5,138 nt of DNA, taken from Promethearchaeota archaeon. GTDB lineage: Archaea > Asgardarchaeota > Lokiarchaeia > Sigynarchaeales > SOKP01. Both the position numbers and the translations under genes were made by a program. A model generated the notes under the pieces. That model had not been told where the DNA came from, made no database searches, and was given only the letters and a program-made list of their open reading frames with translations. How positions within the stretch are numbered: the first letter of the stretch is position 1; every line of letters starts with the position of its first letter. The DNA is taken from NCBI GenBank assembly GCA_019057975.1, contig JAHLWJ010000335.1, positions 1 to 5,138 on the forward strand, read 5' to 3'. This document shows, one piece after another, positions 1-5,138 of this stretch.

Positions 1-2138
1 CAGAATGGATTTATTTTAAGCCTAATATTAATGATTTATATCAGCAAATTGAAGCAATAAATAATCTTCAATGTAAACCACGGAAAGAGCATTTACCTTT
101 ATTAAAATTGTTTGTAAGTAAAAAAGATGCTTTATGGCCGAGGTTTGATAAGGTCAAAATTGATGATTGGATTTTGTTAAAGGACCCAGATTTTCCGGGG
201 GTTCAAAATCAACGAAATTTCGTAGAAGTAGCATTAAGTACTCCAGACTTCGCGATATTAGAAGGTCCGCCAGGTTCTGGAAAAACACATACAATTTGTG
301 AGATTATACTTCAAGCGATCAAAAGGAATATGAGGATTCTCTTATGTGCTTCAACGCATGTTGCTGTTGATAATGTCCTTGAATATTTAGTAGATAAAGA
401 AGATGTAATAGCAGTACGTATCGGAAGAGAAGATAATCAATCAATTTCCCCTAAAGTTAAAAAATTTCTATTATCAAGAAGAATAAATACTGAAAAACAG
501 TGGTTAATAGAGAAATTAACGAATTTAGGTGATAATATAAATAGGGGGCAACAATATTTTTTAGATGTTTTAAAATCAAAAAATGGGGAAACAGAAATAG
601 AAAGGATGATATTAAATAACGCTAACTTGATTTGTGGAACAACTATTGGAATATTGCAACATCCCGCAATTCGTGAAGAAAGATCCACTCCTAGAGCTGT
701 ATTTGATATCTTAATTATTGATGAAGCAAGTAAAACCACGCTCCAAGAATTTATTGTCCCAGCATTATACTGTCGAAAATGGGTTATGGTTGGAGATGTT
801 AGGCAATTATCTCCATTTGTAGATGCAGTTGCTGTAAGAAAATCGGTTGAAGGTCTCCTTAATGATAATGAGAAAACTATATGTAGAGATGCTTTTTGTT
901 TATGGAAATTCTCTGGGTTTAGTATTATTATATCAGAGCCGAATAAAGAAATTCGCGACAAATATAAATTCCAATTCGATTCCTTAAAACTCGAATATTT
1001 TGATTTAGAAACAGTACAAGAAAACGCGTCGTATCAATTTTTAGCTTCCCAAATTTTTATTGGAACACCCGAGTTAGTAAAACAATATGAAAATCATTTT
1101 CCCATGGATACTTTTTTAAGAGGTAAAGAATTTGGGATTAAATTAAAATTTGCAAATAACTATTGGATAAATCATATTGAAAACGAGAAATTTTCTACTC
1201 GATATAGAGGGAGTTTTGGAGATCTTATAGCCTGGCGTTTAATCCGATTGTTTGATTTAAGATTTTCAGAAGGTGATCTAAGGATATCCGAAATCTCTCA
1301 AGATATAGATAATCTTCTTCCTTATTGGAAAGATGATACAGAATTACAGAAAGATCTGAGTTTAATTAAAAAAATTGCTTTTCCTTCTATATTAGAAATA
1401 ATTCAAGAAGGTTTTCATGAGGTAAAAAAAGAAAATTTACCCTATTATAAAATGACCGTCTCTACCCACGGATTCAACTCTGAAGATAAGGAAGTTAGAT
1501 ATGAGCTTTTAGAATACCAACACAGAATGCATCCTGAAATTTCAAAGTTTTCCCGAGAACAAATTTATCGAGGTAAAGCACTAAAAGATAATCAGAATTT
1601 AAGGAAACTGAGAGAATGGAATTATAAAAAATATGCTAGTAGAATAATTTGGGTAAATATACTAACGAGAAATTCATCAAAAATTAATATCAATCTAACT
1701 GAAGCTCATAGACTACTTGAAGAATTAAAATCATTCTTAGATTTCTCAAAGAACAATCCTAAAAATGGAAATGAATCCTGGGATGTAGCAGTTTTAACTT
1801 TTTATAGTTATCAAGAAGATTTCTTAAGAAACCTTATAAAGAATTTTTTTGGCAAAAAAATGAACTTAAGAGAATTTGATATACCCAAATATAATATCAA
1901 TATAAAGATCTGCACAGTCGATAGATTTCAAGGACATGAAGCAGATATAGTTTTTTTATCATTTGTGAAAACAAATAGTGTCGGTTTTTTAAACTCATTA
2001 AATCGCCTTAATGTAGCCATTACAAGAGCACGATATCAACTAGTTATGATTGGAAATAAAAAGTTTTTTTTAGATCAAAAAATCTCCCCAACACTTAAGG
2101 AGTTAGCAAAAATCCAAGATGACATATCAATAAATTAG
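1..2138 (+). CDS. SF1 UPF1/DNA2-like helicase (COG1112 type), 5'-truncated by window edge
   Basis: Predicted ATP-driven DNA or RNA helicase of superfamily 1, UPF1/DNA2-like group. The frame is open from base 3 (first complete codon) to TAG at 2136-2138, giving 711 visible residues; the true start lies upstream. Counting from base 3, all core motifs are present: QR of the Q-motif (70-71) in GVQNQRNFV, Walker A GPPGSGKT (88-95), motif Ia around ASTHVAVDNV (116-125), Walker B IIDEAS (238-243), motif III GDVRQLSP (264-271), QHRMHP (506-511), motif V TVDRFQGHEADIV (638-650) and motif VI RLNVAITRAR (668-677). The stretch from TPDFAILEGPP through DEASKTT to GDVRQLSP is typical of bacterial and archaeal COG1112 proteins. 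About 190 residues (roughly 272-460) separate motif III from the SILEIIQEG segment before QHRMHP, far more than in canonical UPF1. The protein ends 34 residues after motif VI, so no nuclease domain is fused at the C-terminus. It is first in view of a three-gene operon with a PLD nuclease. The polarity, DNA or RNA preference and N-terminal domain cannot be read here. Confidence 0.93.
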   Translation, partial: EWIYFKPNINDLYQQIEAINNLQCKPRKEHLPLLKLFVSKKDALWPRFDKVKIDDWILLKDPDFPGVQNQRNFVEVALSTPDFAILEGPPGSGKTHTICEIILQAIKRNMRILLCASTHVAVDNVLEYLVDKEDVIAVRIGREDNQSISPKVKKFLLSRRINTEKQWLIEKLTNLGDNINRGQQYFLDVLKSKNGETEIERMILNNANLICGTTIGILQHPAIREERSTPRAVFDILIIDEASKTTLQEFIVPALYCRKWVMVGDVRQLSPFVDAVAVRKSVEGLLNDNEKTICRDAFCLWKFSGFSIIISEPNKEIRDKYKFQFDSLKLEYFDLETVQENASYQFLASQIFIGTPELVKQYENHFPMDTFLRGKEFGIKLKFANNYWINHIENEKFSTRYRGSFGDLIAWRLIRLFDLRFSEGDLRISEISQDIDNLLPYWKDDTELQKDLSLIKKIAFPSILEIIQEGFHEVKKENLPYYKMTVSTHGFNSEDKEVRYELLEYQHRMHPEISKFSREQIYRGKALKDNQNLRKLREWNYKKYASRIIWVNILTRNSSKININLTEAHRLLEELKSFLDFSKNNPKNGNESWDVAVLTFYSYQEDFLRNLIKNFFGKKMNLREFDIPKYNINIKICTVDRFQGHEADIVFLSFVKTNSVGFLNSLNRLNVAITRARYQLVMIGNKKFFLDQKISPTLKELAKIQDDISIN

Positions 2139-2142
2139 GTGA
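2137..2142 (+). promoter_or_regulatory. Shine-Dalgarno site AGGTGA for the middle gene
   Basis: AGGTGA overlaps the last two bases of the helicase TAG stop and sits 6 bases before the ATG at 2149, an ideal spacing. This fixes the start of the middle gene and suggests that its translation is coupled to termination on the helicase. Confidence 0.8.
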
Positions 2143-2148
2143 AAAAAT

Positions 2149-3282
2149 ATGGAAATTATATTGAAAAGAAAAGTTATAGTGAAGAAGTATAAAGCACTTC
2201 TAGATATTGGTATTAAAGAGAGAAGGTCTGATATCATAGCACTTTTATTGATTGCTAAATCTCATAATGATCAGTTGTCAATTCCAATAATTTGTAATGA
2301 ATTTATATTTCGTGATAATGAAACTATCGCTAAAAGGATAATCCAAAGATGTCAGGATCTTGCCTTGCTTGATAAGAATTTGAAAATTACCGAAGAAGGA
2401 TTAGCCGCTAGGGATGATGAGATGATTTATTATCCTTTCACAGGAACATATTATGTGTGGGTAACTGAAGATCCTATCTTTCCTCAGAGAATATTAAACA
2501 TCGAAATGGTAGACGAAAAAATAAATTTCAAACAGGAAATTAAAGGATATAAATGGGAATATGTAAATGGGGAACGAACAAAAATAGAGATTGAAAAAAA
2601 TATCATTTCAGTTCCAGAATGGCTAAAAAATGTTGAATCCTTAAAAAACATCAAATTATTTAACGAGGATAAAAAAGATATAAGAATACAAAAAATCGAA
2701 GAAAAAATCGAACCAATTTCTATTGAAGAGTTAGAGACTCAAATAAAAATATCAGATGATTTAAAATTATTAGAATTAAGTGGAATTTTTAATGATGAGA
2801 GAGAAGTTCCATTTTTTCCGGATATTCGTTCAATTTGGGAACAAATTCTGAAAGATAAATATCGAAAGTGGGATTGGAGTGATGAAAGTCTAAAGTTAAG
2901 ATATAACGAAACATCGGCAGTAGAGAAAAAAAACTTTACCAAAATATTTAATTTCTTAGATCCTATTATTGAGAAATTTGGTAAATTTGAGTCTATTGAT
3001 ATAAAATTAAAAATTAAACCAGAATCTGATGAAGAAGCAACTTTATGGGCTAATTGGTTATTAGAAAATCAAATTCAAGAATTTATGTTTCCTCAGATTT
3101 TTAAAAATTATAAAAATCAAATTTCAAGTAAGTTCCAAGGTTTCAATATCGAATTAAAACCAGTTAAGGAAATTTCAGAGGTTTTTATCAGTAAAATGTT
3201 TATAGAGGAAATTTCTAACGATTTTTGGTTTATCCAAGCACCATTAGACATTTTTCCGATTAATATTGGAGGAGATGAATAA
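2149..3282 (+). CDS. Unrecognised 377-aa protein, probable N-terminal winged helix, between helicase and PLD nuclease
   Basis: I do not recognise a named family. The ATG start is supported by AGGTGA 6 bases upstream. Residues about 22-88 alternate helix-rich and short strand-like stretches (RRSDIIALLLIAKS, then ETIAKRIIQRCQDLALLD, then LKITEEGLAARD), the pattern of a winged helix-turn-helix whose wing ends in 'ITEEG'. Next comes a conserved-looking motif GTYYVWVTEDPIFP (99-112). Residues about 170-210 are highly charged and probably a linker. The C-terminal part (about 222-377) is mixed alpha/beta, with Trp-rich KWDWSDES (240-247) and an ending with FWFIQAPLDIFPI (359-371). No catalytic motif, signal peptide or membrane segment is seen. 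The position, 10 bases after the helicase and 1 base before the PLD gene, implies work in the same complex or pathway, perhaps as nucleic-acid recognition or adaptor subunit (inference). The protein is probably cytoplasmic. The reading frame is very secure, the function is not. Confidence 0.9.
   Translation: MEIILKRKVIVKKYKALLDIGIKERRSDIIALLLIAKSHNDQLSIPIICNEFIFRDNETIAKRIIQRCQDLALLDKNLKITEEGLAARDDEMIYYPFTGTYYVWVTEDPIFPQRILNIEMVDEKINFKQEIKGYKWEYVNGERTKIEIEKNIISVPEWLKNVESLKNIKLFNEDKKDIRIQKIEEKIEPISIEELETQIKISDDLKLLELSGIFNDEREVPFFPDIRSIWEQILKDKYRKWDWSDESLKLRYNETSAVEKKNFTKIFNFLDPIIEKFGKFESIDIKLKIKPESDEEATLWANWLLENQIQEFMFPQIFKNYKNQISSKFQGFNIELKPVKEISEVFISKMFIEEISNDFWFIQAPLDIFPINIGGDE
3268..3274 (+). 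promoter_or_regulatory. Shine-Dalgarno site GGAGGAG deciding the PLD gene start
   Basis: GGAGGAG lies inside the last codons of the middle gene. It is 9-11 bases before ATG 3284, depending on which GGAG pairs with 16S rRNA, and touches the ATG at 3275 too closely to serve it. It also overlaps the in-frame TTG at 3266, which therefore cannot be the start. The site selects ATG 3284, one base after the middle gene's TAA (3280-3282), indicating coupled translation. Confidence 0.75.
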
Positions 3283-3283
3283 A

Positions 3284-4807
3284 ATGTTAACTGATTTTAG
3301 TACGGTAGAAAAAAAAGAGATTATAATAAATAATCATGTTTTAGAGAAAATTTGGTATATTGCGGAAGATAAGGAATTTAAAGAACACCTACAGGAATTT
3401 TATAAACCTAATATATGGTTTGCTGGAAAAAAAAGGATTTTTGAAAAAAGTATCGCTAAGCATATTGAAAACGCTAAAGAAATAGTAATAATTTGCTCAT
3501 TTTTACTTGAACAAACAGAAATTATTGACGCAATACTAAAAATTGTTAAAAATTCAGTTAGAGTATATATTATTACTGCTTCTGAAAACCAATTAGAAAA
3601 ATCGTATCAATTAGAGAGTGAATTAGAGGATGAAAGGGTTGCAGCTCATATACTTTTATTAAAAAACTTGAGGAAAAAATGTTTAATAAGAAGTGCCCCA
3701 AACTTCCATGCTAAATATATTTTGATTGATCCAAAATTAAACTCAAGGTTAGGTTTTATTTCTAGTGCTAATTTTACAAAACATGCTTTATCTAGCAATA
3801 TAGAAATAGGAGTACAATTAAATGAAGAGCAAATATCGGATTTATTTAATTCATTTTGCTATACTTTTTGGTATGAAAGTAAACACGAATATCTAAGAGA
3901 AGCTTCTTTAAGTGCCGTAAGAGATGCGCCGATTGGATTTATTGATAAACCAGATTTAACTCATATTATCTGTCCTAAATCAAATAACGATTTTGAATTA
4001 AATCTTACGAGGCTTATTAAAAATTCTCACGGAGATATTTATATAAGCTCTTATTCAATAGATTCCAATAATTCAGTTTTTAAAATAATTTTAAACCAGT
4101 TAAAGAATGGTCGAAAAATCTATATCTATGTAAGACCTAGGAAAAAAGATTTGGATTCTTTGCTTGAATTAGAGCAAGCAGGAGCAACTATACGGGGGCA
4201 CCCATCACTTCACTTTAAATGCATACTAATTGATGAGAGTATAGATAAAAATGGGATAATATTCACGGGGAATTTAACGAAAGAAAGTTTTGAGAGTAGT
4301 TATGATGTGGGTATATTTTTAAATTCCCAACAATATAAAATTATCTTAGAAATTCTTAAATCTTGGAGATTTTTAATGCCAGCAATTTTTTTCGGAAAAG
4401 CAAGTATAAGTGAAATACCAATAGGAAAATACAGGGAATGGACACCAAAAAAAAGTGAGTTTGAAATAAAGCAACTAGTAGTTCAAGATTTAGGAACATT
4501 CGAAGGAGATACAATTGAATCCTATCAAAGTTTTAAACCTAACTATGAGATATCGAACGAAATTCGAGATAATGTAAAGGAAATACATATTTTATGGAGG
4601 GTAACACCTCCTATATTACCAAAAGATGCTAAACTTGTTACAAACATCCCAGATAATCTCTCTAAAAAACACAAACATTTATTGGAAAATGAAAAAAGAT
4701 TATACAGAAAAAATAAAAAAAAATACTTATTGTTTAAACGAGGAGATAACTATAAACTGATTAGAGATTTATCGGAAATTATAGGAGCTAAATTAGTCCT
4801 GGAATAA
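3284..4807 (+). CDS. Phospholipase D-superfamily protein with two HKD motifs, probable nuclease
   Basis: Predicted phosphodiesterase of the PLD superfamily, most likely a nuclease given its helicase partner. From ATG 3284 it has 507 residues. Two HKD repeats are complete. The first has H142, K144 and D149 (FHAKYILID), followed by FISSANFT (158-165). The second has H310, K312 and D317 (LHFKCILID), followed by FTGNLT (327-332). Each lobe begins with a strand-rich stretch (about 64-100 and 249-286). One chain can thus form the two-lobed active site that single-HKD PLD nucleases build by dimerising. In the known mechanism one histidine forms a covalent phospho-intermediate and the other protonates the leaving group; no metal is needed. 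The C-terminal 140 residues (about 365-507) match no domain I know, end very basic (KKHKHLL to YRKNKKK, 461-480) and may bind nucleic acid. There is no signal peptide or membrane segment, so it is cytoplasmic, which argues against a secreted phospholipase. Earlier in-frame TTG (3266) and ATG (3275) codons are less likely starts. It is the last gene of the operon. Confidence 0.93.
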   Translation: MLTDFSTVEKKEIIINNHVLEKIWYIAEDKEFKEHLQEFYKPNIWFAGKKRIFEKSIAKHIENAKEIVIICSFLLEQTEIIDAILKIVKNSVRVYIITASENQLEKSYQLESELEDERVAAHILLLKNLRKKCLIRSAPNFHAKYILIDPKLNSRLGFISSANFTKHALSSNIEIGVQLNEEQISDLFNSFCYTFWYESKHEYLREASLSAVRDAPIGFIDKPDLTHIICPKSNNDFELNLTRLIKNSHGDIYISSYSIDSNNSVFKIILNQLKNGRKIYIYVRPRKKDLDSLLELEQAGATIRGHPSLHFKCILIDESIDKNGIIFTGNLTKESFESSYDVGIFLNSQQYKIILEILKSWRFLMPAIFFGKASISEIPIGKYREWTPKKSEFEIKQLVVQDLGTFEGDTIESYQSFKPNYEISNEIRDNVKEIHILWRVTPPILPKDAKLVTNIPDNLSKKHKHLLENEKRLYRKNKKKYLLFKRGDNYKLIRDLSEIIGAKLVLE

Positions 4808-4932: not shown

Positions 4933-5138
4933 TTAGGCTTTAAAAAAATCACTGATTGTTTTATTTTTTTTTTTTTTTAAACTTGATAAAGTCTTAGCTA
5001 TTTGATCTATATCGGCAATTTTTTTAATCACATAAAATTTTTTCTCAGATTTGAGAATTTTTCGTGGAAATTCAGTTTCTTCAACGATTTCTTTGGGTTT
5101 GAGAACGATTGTAGGTTTCCCTTGCTCCTTACCATATT
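4933..5138 (-). CDS. 3' end of a convergent gene; 67 C-terminal residues ending in a PIP-box-like motif
   Basis: On the minus strand a frame is open from the right edge (first complete codon 5136-5134) to TAA at 4935-4933. The start lies beyond the window. The visible 67 residues are lysine-rich and hydrophilic, with a likely short strand or helix in KKFYVIKKIADIDQIAKTL (32-50), then KKKK (54-57) and the ending NKTISDFFKA (58-67). NKTISDFF fits the PCNA-interacting consensus Q-x-x-(hydrophobic)-x-x-(aromatic)-(aromatic), with Asn in place of Gln, and sits at the extreme C-terminus where archaeal replication and repair proteins often carry it. The protein could therefore be a DNA replication or repair factor (inference); the body of the protein is not recognised. 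A run of 15 A in the coding strand encodes most of the KKKK stretch, and this ending exists only if the run length is correct. It is the only open frame through this end of the window, but it is short, so the call is moderate. Confidence 0.6.
   Translation of the reverse strand, partial: YGKEQGKPTIVLKPKEIVEETEFPRKILKSEKKFYVIKKIADIDQIAKTLSSLKKKKNKTISDFFKA
4964..4978 (+). terminator. Oligo-T tract (T15), candidate 3' end signal of the helicase-PLD operon
   Basis: Fifteen consecutive T on the plus strand lie 156 bases beyond the PLD stop codon, with further T-rich sequence just upstream (GTTTTA). No stable GC-rich hairpin precedes it, so it does not look like a bacterial intrinsic terminator. 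Archaeal RNA polymerase can terminate on oligo-T alone, and such a tract would do so efficiently. It lies inside the coding region of the convergent gene, so it may instead simply reflect lysine codons there. Confidence 0.4.

Follow-up and report, generated by a model that had tools for sequence, protein, structure and literature searches.

The window analysed here, a stretch of 5,138 nucleotides (nt) from a Promethearchaeota archaeon, carries three plus-strand open reading frames (ORFs) packed head to tail with gaps of 10 and 1 nt, namely a helicase gene, a middle gene and a gene of the phospholipase D (PLD) family. The same helicase-middle-PLD cassette recurs in other Asgard genomes, where viperin, Argonaute or CRISPR genes can stand directly in front of it. 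In the window, the helicase gene (1..2138; 711 codons in the frame 3-2138) lacks its 5' end, complete relatives being 843-1276 amino acids (aa) long. From the ORF map, its Pfam matches (AAA_11/AAA_12) and its motifs, it codes for a UPF1-like helicase of superfamily 1 (SF1), with a Walker A motif (GPPGSGKT, 264..287), a Walker B motif or motif II (ILIIDEAS, containing DEAS, 708..731), and motif VI. The closest full-length relative, the helicase of locus L001, has SMUBP-2, UPF1 and SEN1 as its nearest solved structures, with DNA2 also among its relatives.

The middle gene (2149..3282) codes for a 377-aa adaptor-like protein for which profile libraries and homologue searches gave no library family: a single sub-threshold match was obtained against Pfam (E 0.14), a sub-threshold match only against NCBIfam, and no family in PADLOC. 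Structure prediction places a winged helix inside it, at residues 25-92 (2221..2424). The PLD gene (3284..4807) codes for a 507-aa protein, identified by the ORF map, Pfam (PLDc_2) and homologues, which displays two catalytic HKD motifs, HAKYILID (3707..3730) and HFKCILID (4211..4234), both aligning as complete HxK(x4)D; against solved structures it weakly matches NucT/Nuc. Its start is best placed at the ATG at 3284, because this is preceded by GGAGGAG (3268..3274), a likely ribosome-binding site lying inside the end of the middle gene, and because the mechanically listed TTG at 3266 would overlap the middle gene. A first-pass annotation of the same DNA had described three tightly packed plus-strand genes coding for a UPF1/DNA2-like SF1 helicase with its core motifs, a winged-helix-like protein and a PLD protein with both active-site motifs, and these assignments all stand, for a helicase whose 5' end is missing.

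Of 227 genomes from the phylum of the window (Asgard), 13 gave the middle gene in a profile search. This count is a lower bound, since the survey missed at least the middle genes of L079 and L082, which were recognised later, and that of L077, which is recognisable by profile comparison only (98.5%). The helicase gene lies directly upstream of the middle gene, on the same strand, at all 13 loci, although a contig end cuts it in L026 and L030. The PLD gene lies directly downstream at 12, these being the loci whose contig reaches that far, as the contig of L024, the remaining locus, stops within the middle gene. The helicase and PLD frames of L031 are interrupted. The arrangement goes beyond chance, since gene order and strand are the same at each of the 13 loci up to wherever its contig ends. 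The constant additional middle protein that the first-pass annotation had supposed, the co-occurrence of the three genes that it had proposed as a check, and the absence of any helicase-nuclease fusion are all borne out, the three genes being separate in the window and at the 16 other loci laid out.

Extra cassette copies were reached through helicase or PLD matches at L079, L082 and L077, and copies split between contigs in G037 (L065/L066) and G002 (L080/L081), the middle gene being seen in neither of the split copies. Helicase, middle and PLD proteins have pairwise distances that track one another across 15 loci (correlations of 0.94, 0.90 and 0.92), a level that none of 2000 permutations attained. 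In the helicase tree, 20 helicases of the cassette family form a group apart from four stand-alone Asgard ones (support 100/100), and the window helicase is the sister of that of L001 (100/99). The nearest middle proteins, 88-97% identical, come from metagenomes, one of them labelled marine sediment, and relatives with 94-97% identity in the PLD and middle proteins sit on contigs of 8.5 kb. A scan of genome contigs gave two relatives, L001 (Candidatus Lokiarchaeota) and L002 (Candidatus Prometheoarchaeum), which, with the position of the window helicase in the tree, suggests that the window is of Lokiarchaeal origin. A search of 5.8 billion proteins with a widened middle alignment, in which only candidates sharing most words were scored, added one protein. 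The PLD alignment found no relative among the viral contigs scanned, and on that scan a viral origin of the cassette was rejected. A second, divergent cassette, with a helicase, an unassigned middle gene and a PLD gene in the same order, is present at L002:7420-12585 (minus strand), L067:491-5649 and L084:4218-9325, and its middle proteins in L002 and L067 have no similarity to the window's middle family.

The evidence on partners comes from relatives, the window contig beginning inside the helicase and many of the relatives' contigs being short. A prokaryotic viperin gene (PADLOC pVip) stands 5' of the cassette helicase, on the same strand, at four Asgard loci (L022, L025, L029 and L032; best pVip model 259-295 bits), and also in L065 (286 bits), whose contig breaks off within the helicase gene. 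An AA_kinase-family gene lies between the two in L032 and L065, and in L067 viperin directly precedes a cassette of the second type. These are five, plus L067 as a sixth, of 16 viperin matches in 14 of the 227 genomes. Seven of the 13 cassette genomes contain viperin versus seven of the 214 others (p 9e-7). In the viperin tree, the cassette-linked viperins are scattered, which requires five changes, at least four of them forced by supported branches; in the helicase tree the viperin label needs two changes, and strictly supported branches force only one. Viperin is a partner in some relatives and lies outside the cassette core. These loci tie viperin to a helicase-nuclease cassette in Asgard archaea, a link of which we found no report in the open-access literature searched (listings and cited passages).

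Two viperin genes have other neighbours: in G055 (L070:1390-4801) the gene lies 115 nt from a divergent PIWI-domain gene, and in G102 (L068:301-7604) it stands beside very large proteins with leucine-rich and TPR repeats.

A different partner is found in L027, where a type III-B CRISPR operon (Cmr1-Cas10-Cmr3-Cmr4-Cmr5-Cmr6) precedes the helicase and has a final gene that overlaps the called helicase start. The idea that Cas10 is a general partner was discarded, Cas10 having been found in eight of 18 genomes examined and beside the cassette in one, and no CRISPR arrays were seen next to the cassette in the eight loci searched. Whatever their identity, the partners precede the helicase on its own strand, and the spacing is mostly 1-50 nt or an overlap (178 nt in L032).

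The third kind of partner is an Argonaute. Genes with a PIWI domain lie 5' of the helicase in L079 (50 nt away), in L082 (29 nt, cut by the contig end), and in L077 (4-nt overlap), the last having no Pfam match and being identified by a genome search with a PIWI model and by comparison with other Argonautes. They are three of 18 PIWI matches in 17 of the 227 genomes; PIWI genes are present in seven of the 17 genomes with the cassette or its helicase versus 10 of the 210 others (p 4e-5). Over 817 residues, the Argonaute of L079 and the HrAgo1 chain of PDB 8r3z are identical, which makes L079 the HrAgo1 locus of Ca. Harpocratesius repetitus. Here an RNase III-signature gene, 327 nt upstream of HrAgo1, is followed by HrAgo1 and then by genes homologous to the three of the window (helicase, middle, PLD), arranged as they are in the window. 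The text describing HrAgo1 reports hrAgo1 as flanked by rnc and a helicase, places the protein as sister to the eukaryotic PIWI clade, or in some analyses to all eukaryotic Argonautes, and finds its catalytic tetrad active (PMC11217426). The words PLD and phospholipase are absent from the main text of that paper, whose figure may show more genes.

The Argonaute-linked loci also differ in their PLD proteins. When 18 PLD proteins are aligned, all 15 from cassettes without a known Argonaute, the window's among them, retain H, K, D and N in motif 1 and H, K and N in motif 2, whereas the three Argonaute-linked ones have all lost H and K from both HKD motifs. The window, whose upstream part is missing, displays no Argonaute and, in contrast to the HrAgo1 locus, its PLD protein retains both motifs. 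An Argonaute with a PLD partner is also described in haloarchaea, where the PLD protein AgaP is reported to have an unusual but active centre (PMC11442185). AgaP keeps H and K, while the three Argonaute-linked PLD proteins here have neither, and in the Asgard loci the helicase and middle genes stand between PLD and Argonaute.

CARF-family genes are a further recurrent neighbour, present within the fetched stretch at nine of the 13 Asgard loci (PADLOC-confirmed in L001, L002 and L022, the others called by homology or a CARF3 search). At the four loci without one (L024, L026, L029 and L031), a contig end truncates the region in front of the helicase, or in front of its viperin. Eight of the 15 strongest CARF3 matches in the 13 genomes are at most 10 kb away from the cassette (where about 0.1 would be expected; p about 4e-14, with the cut that gives 15 matches picked after the list was viewed), and none of 15 weaker matches, most of them to the winged-helix end only, does so. 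Together with the viperin, Argonaute and CRISPR genes beside many copies, this agrees with the defence-type operon that the first-pass annotation had proposed. A split pair of CARF_m1 and PIN-like genes also recurs by the cassette, at L001:5337-7266, L022:14843-16449, L023:5821-7796, L025:3499-5096 and L027:12600-14272; in PADLOC, which was run on the L001 pair only, it corresponds to one fused CARF_PIN protein.

Regulators of this kind are also found with bacterial copies. A plasmid search with the window's middle protein gave no match; a distant PLD relative led to plasmids of Pontibrevibacter nitratireducens, Vibrio aerogenes and Vibrio rumoiensis, each with an intact copy made of a helicase, a hypothetical protein, a PLD protein and a sigma-54-interacting regulator. 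The hypothetical proteins of Pontibrevibacter nitratireducens and Vibrio aerogenes match the archaeal middle family almost from end to end (hhalign 99.4% and 99.7%, versus 0.1% for an unrelated middle protein used as control), and both bacterial regulators that were scanned belong to the RtcR_PspF1 kind of CARF-AAA-HTH proteins (419 and 693 bits). Since a Csa3 protein is described as binding cA4 (PMC8699464), and since RtcR works through RNA repair proteins and its CARF domain controls the RNA repair genes rtcAB (PMC9650030), the signal that switches the operon on could be a CRISPR messenger or RNA ends. In a Klebsiella plasmid (L064), a fourth copy is broken by insertion elements and has the PLD and regulator genes left, and about 2 kb from the Vibrio aerogenes plasmid cassette lie Cas2 and a Cas6-RT-Cas1 fusion (L062:9418-12707).

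Concerning known defence systems, the cassette shares with Mokosh types I and II (MkoA/MkoB, MkoC) a COG1112-type helicase and a PLD nuclease, and the first-pass annotation had taken it for a relative or possible subtype of that system and suggested a search of its proteins against defence profiles. In that search the best PADLOC match of the window helicase is indeed MkoA (276 bits). However, two stand-alone Asgard UPF1-like helicases score 358 and 369 bits on the same profile versus 269-292 bits for six other cassette helicases, so the match is a mark of the helicase family and not of Mokosh. Moreover, for all seven cassette helicases scanned, the best-scoring match to MkoA (1112 positions) starts no earlier than position 536 and leaves the N-terminal half unmatched. 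In Mokosh that half corresponds to a kinase or a NERD region. The NERD domain is described in PMC10952713. Neither kinase nor NERD domain was detected by Pfam (E <= 0.01) in seven full-length cassette helicases, which goes against the kinase-like domain that had been thought possible in the missing N-terminus. The PLD protein of the window matches DrmC profiles best (82 bits) and MkoC at 17 bits, while MkoB is not among its best 25 of 27 families and gives weak matches of 22-38 bits in the four relatives where it is listed (22 bits in L001). To our knowledge, Mokosh has no conserved third gene between helicase and PLD. We rejected Mokosh membership on the stand-alone helicase controls, the unmatched half of MkoA, the extra conserved middle gene, and a PLD gene that is separate from the helicase. 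As for DISARM, to which DrmC belongs, the other two window genes match neither DrmA nor DrmB.

Another parallel is provided by CoCoNuT systems, described as typically encoding, behind a UPF1-like helicase and in its operon, a fusion of winged helix and nuclease (the CnuH-CnuE module), with two PLD domains as nuclease in type III-C, a CARF/RtcR linkage in type II, and a predicted targeting of RNA (PMC11090510). By that description, the cassette fits the CoCoNuT pattern, including a UPF1-like helicase followed by a winged-helix protein plus a nuclease, with two differences: winged helix and PLD are unfused here, and the partners are viperin, Argonaute or Cmr. The 5.1-kb window is too short to accommodate the McrB-type GTPase and McrC partners of the module (CnuB, CnuC).

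We propose that the trio is the core of an RNA-directed antiviral module with exchangeable partners, probably forming one complex, and we put the probability of this at roughly one half. Viperin and Cmr act on RNA or RNA synthesis. The same is described for HrAgo1 (PMC11217426), and we favour an RNA-directed antiviral platform because what viperin, Argonaute, Cmr and RNase III have in common is RNA. Complex formation, the RNA target, the defence role and the order of events are what we infer in the following scheme. Helicase, winged-helix adaptor and PLD nuclease would be made together, probably as one complex, once CARF regulators had switched the operon on. The 5' partner would either recognise foreign RNA, as expected of an Argonaute or a type III-B CRISPR complex, or mark it, as expected of viperin, whose product ddhNTP ends RNA chains. 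The helicase would then load on the flagged RNA and track along it, and the adaptor would couple it to the PLD protein, which would cut. In the Argonaute-linked form, the Argonaute would cut and the PLD protein would stay as a scaffold.

Several observations weigh against this proposal. The window itself shows no partner or regulator. Elsewhere, nine other mapped viperin genes (the mapping left out G025:C276) and, by coordinates, 15 of the 18 PIWI matches are not beside a cassette gene, and when only the 13 genomes recovered by the middle-gene search are counted, the excess of PIWI genes is not significant (three of 13 versus 14 of 214, p 0.06). Defence genes cluster anyway, so adjacency alone is no proof of joint action. 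Concerning the PLD protein, the D of motif 2 is present in seven and missing in eight of the 15 cassettes without a known Argonaute. The loss of both motifs may be a single event, because the three Argonaute-linked helicases form one clade (100/99 in the helicase tree). Finally, PLD nucleases and UPF1/DNA2-type helicases can act on DNA, and the best solved match of the L079 helicase is DNA2, barely ahead of UPF1 (81 versus 80 bits).

This last point leads to the alternative of a defence system acting on DNA, in which the helicase would translocate on single-stranded or damaged DNA and the PLD protein would nick it, as in DISARM-like, NgoAVII-like or Hachiman-type systems. The match of the window PLD to DrmC, its weak resemblance to NucT/Nuc, and the presence of DNA2 among the solved relatives of the L001 helicase and at their top for the HrAgo1-linked one all point in this direction, as does the haloarchaeal Argonaute-PLD pair, which is described as restricting plasmid DNA (PMC11442185). 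On the other hand, the L001 helicase is closest to SMUBP-2, UPF1 and SEN1 among solved structures, and viperin, HrAgo1 and Cmr, the partners that replace one another, all operate at the RNA level. On balance we consider a DNA target unlikely, if worth keeping in mind.

Rather less probable, in our opinion, is an operon for RNA quality control or repair that RNA damage would turn on, where regulators of the CARF/RtcR type would sense RNA ends and the helicase-PLD pair would clear broken RNA. The RtcR-type CARF regulators of the bacterial copies, the control of rtcAB by the CARF domain of RtcR (PMC9650030), and the role of UPF1 as an RNA-surveillance helicase would suit such an operon, whereas the patchy distribution of the cassette (13 of 227 genomes), its occurrence on plasmids and its viperin and type III-B CRISPR neighbours indicate defence.

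The trio might also be self-sufficient, a passenger of defence islands that owes its viperin, Argonaute, CRISPR and CARF neighbours to clustering only. Most of the viperins examined and most PIWI genes do stand elsewhere, and in three of the seven viperin-bearing cassette genomes (G055, G091 and G120) viperin is found on a contig other than the cassette's. Mere clustering sits poorly, however, with partners that are consistently 5', on the same strand and mostly within 50 nt or overlapping, with PLD motifs altered in the Argonaute-bearing clade, and with linked viperins that are scattered over their tree, so that we hold it for quite improbable, even if the helicase tree strictly forces only one change. 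A new Mokosh subtype with a third gene, suggested by the MkoA match and by the combination of helicase and PLD, is the most doubtful of all, given the higher-scoring stand-alone helicases, the weak or missing MkoB matches, and a middle protein that belongs to no PADLOC family.

Returning to the RNA-directed module, its Argonaute-linked form allows a broader and more tentative proposal, which we regard as possible though on present evidence doubtful. The cassette might be a general RNA-surveillance platform into which Asgard archaea plug different RNA-marking components, be it viperin, a type III-B CRISPR complex, or an Argonaute of PIWI affinity together with RNase III. The combination with HrAgo1 might then be a prokaryotic counterpart, possibly a forerunner, of the PIWI-Armitage/MOV10L1-Zucchini axis; the PLD protein would have become a scaffold once the Argonaute cut, and the window would represent the form whose PLD protein still cuts. 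A comparison with the PIWI-interacting RNA (piRNA) pathway had been drawn in the first-pass annotation by way of Mokosh. The comparison gains an independent footing from the cassette that directly follows the PIWI-related HrAgo1 in another Asgard genome. This raises the question of an archaeal root for the triad of PIWI, helicase and PLD in the piRNA pathway. As to how an HrAgo1-like Argonaute obtains its guides or partners, the cassette behind it, elsewhere paired with viperin or type III CRISPR, offers a concrete set of partners that can be expressed.

Some further genes surround the cassettes. Upstream of that of L001 lies a large ORF (L001:719-3514), which from a reading of its sequence we take to resemble a DUF499-type ATPase. 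Downstream of the same cassette is an RNase III-like gene (26.4 bits, for a Pfam cut-off of 27) with a weak match to a double-stranded RNA-binding domain. In the window, the next ORF of at least 60 codons after the PLD gene lies at 4933-5136 on the opposite strand and represents the C-terminal 67 codons of an unrelated convergent gene, with a sub-threshold match only to DUF7486.

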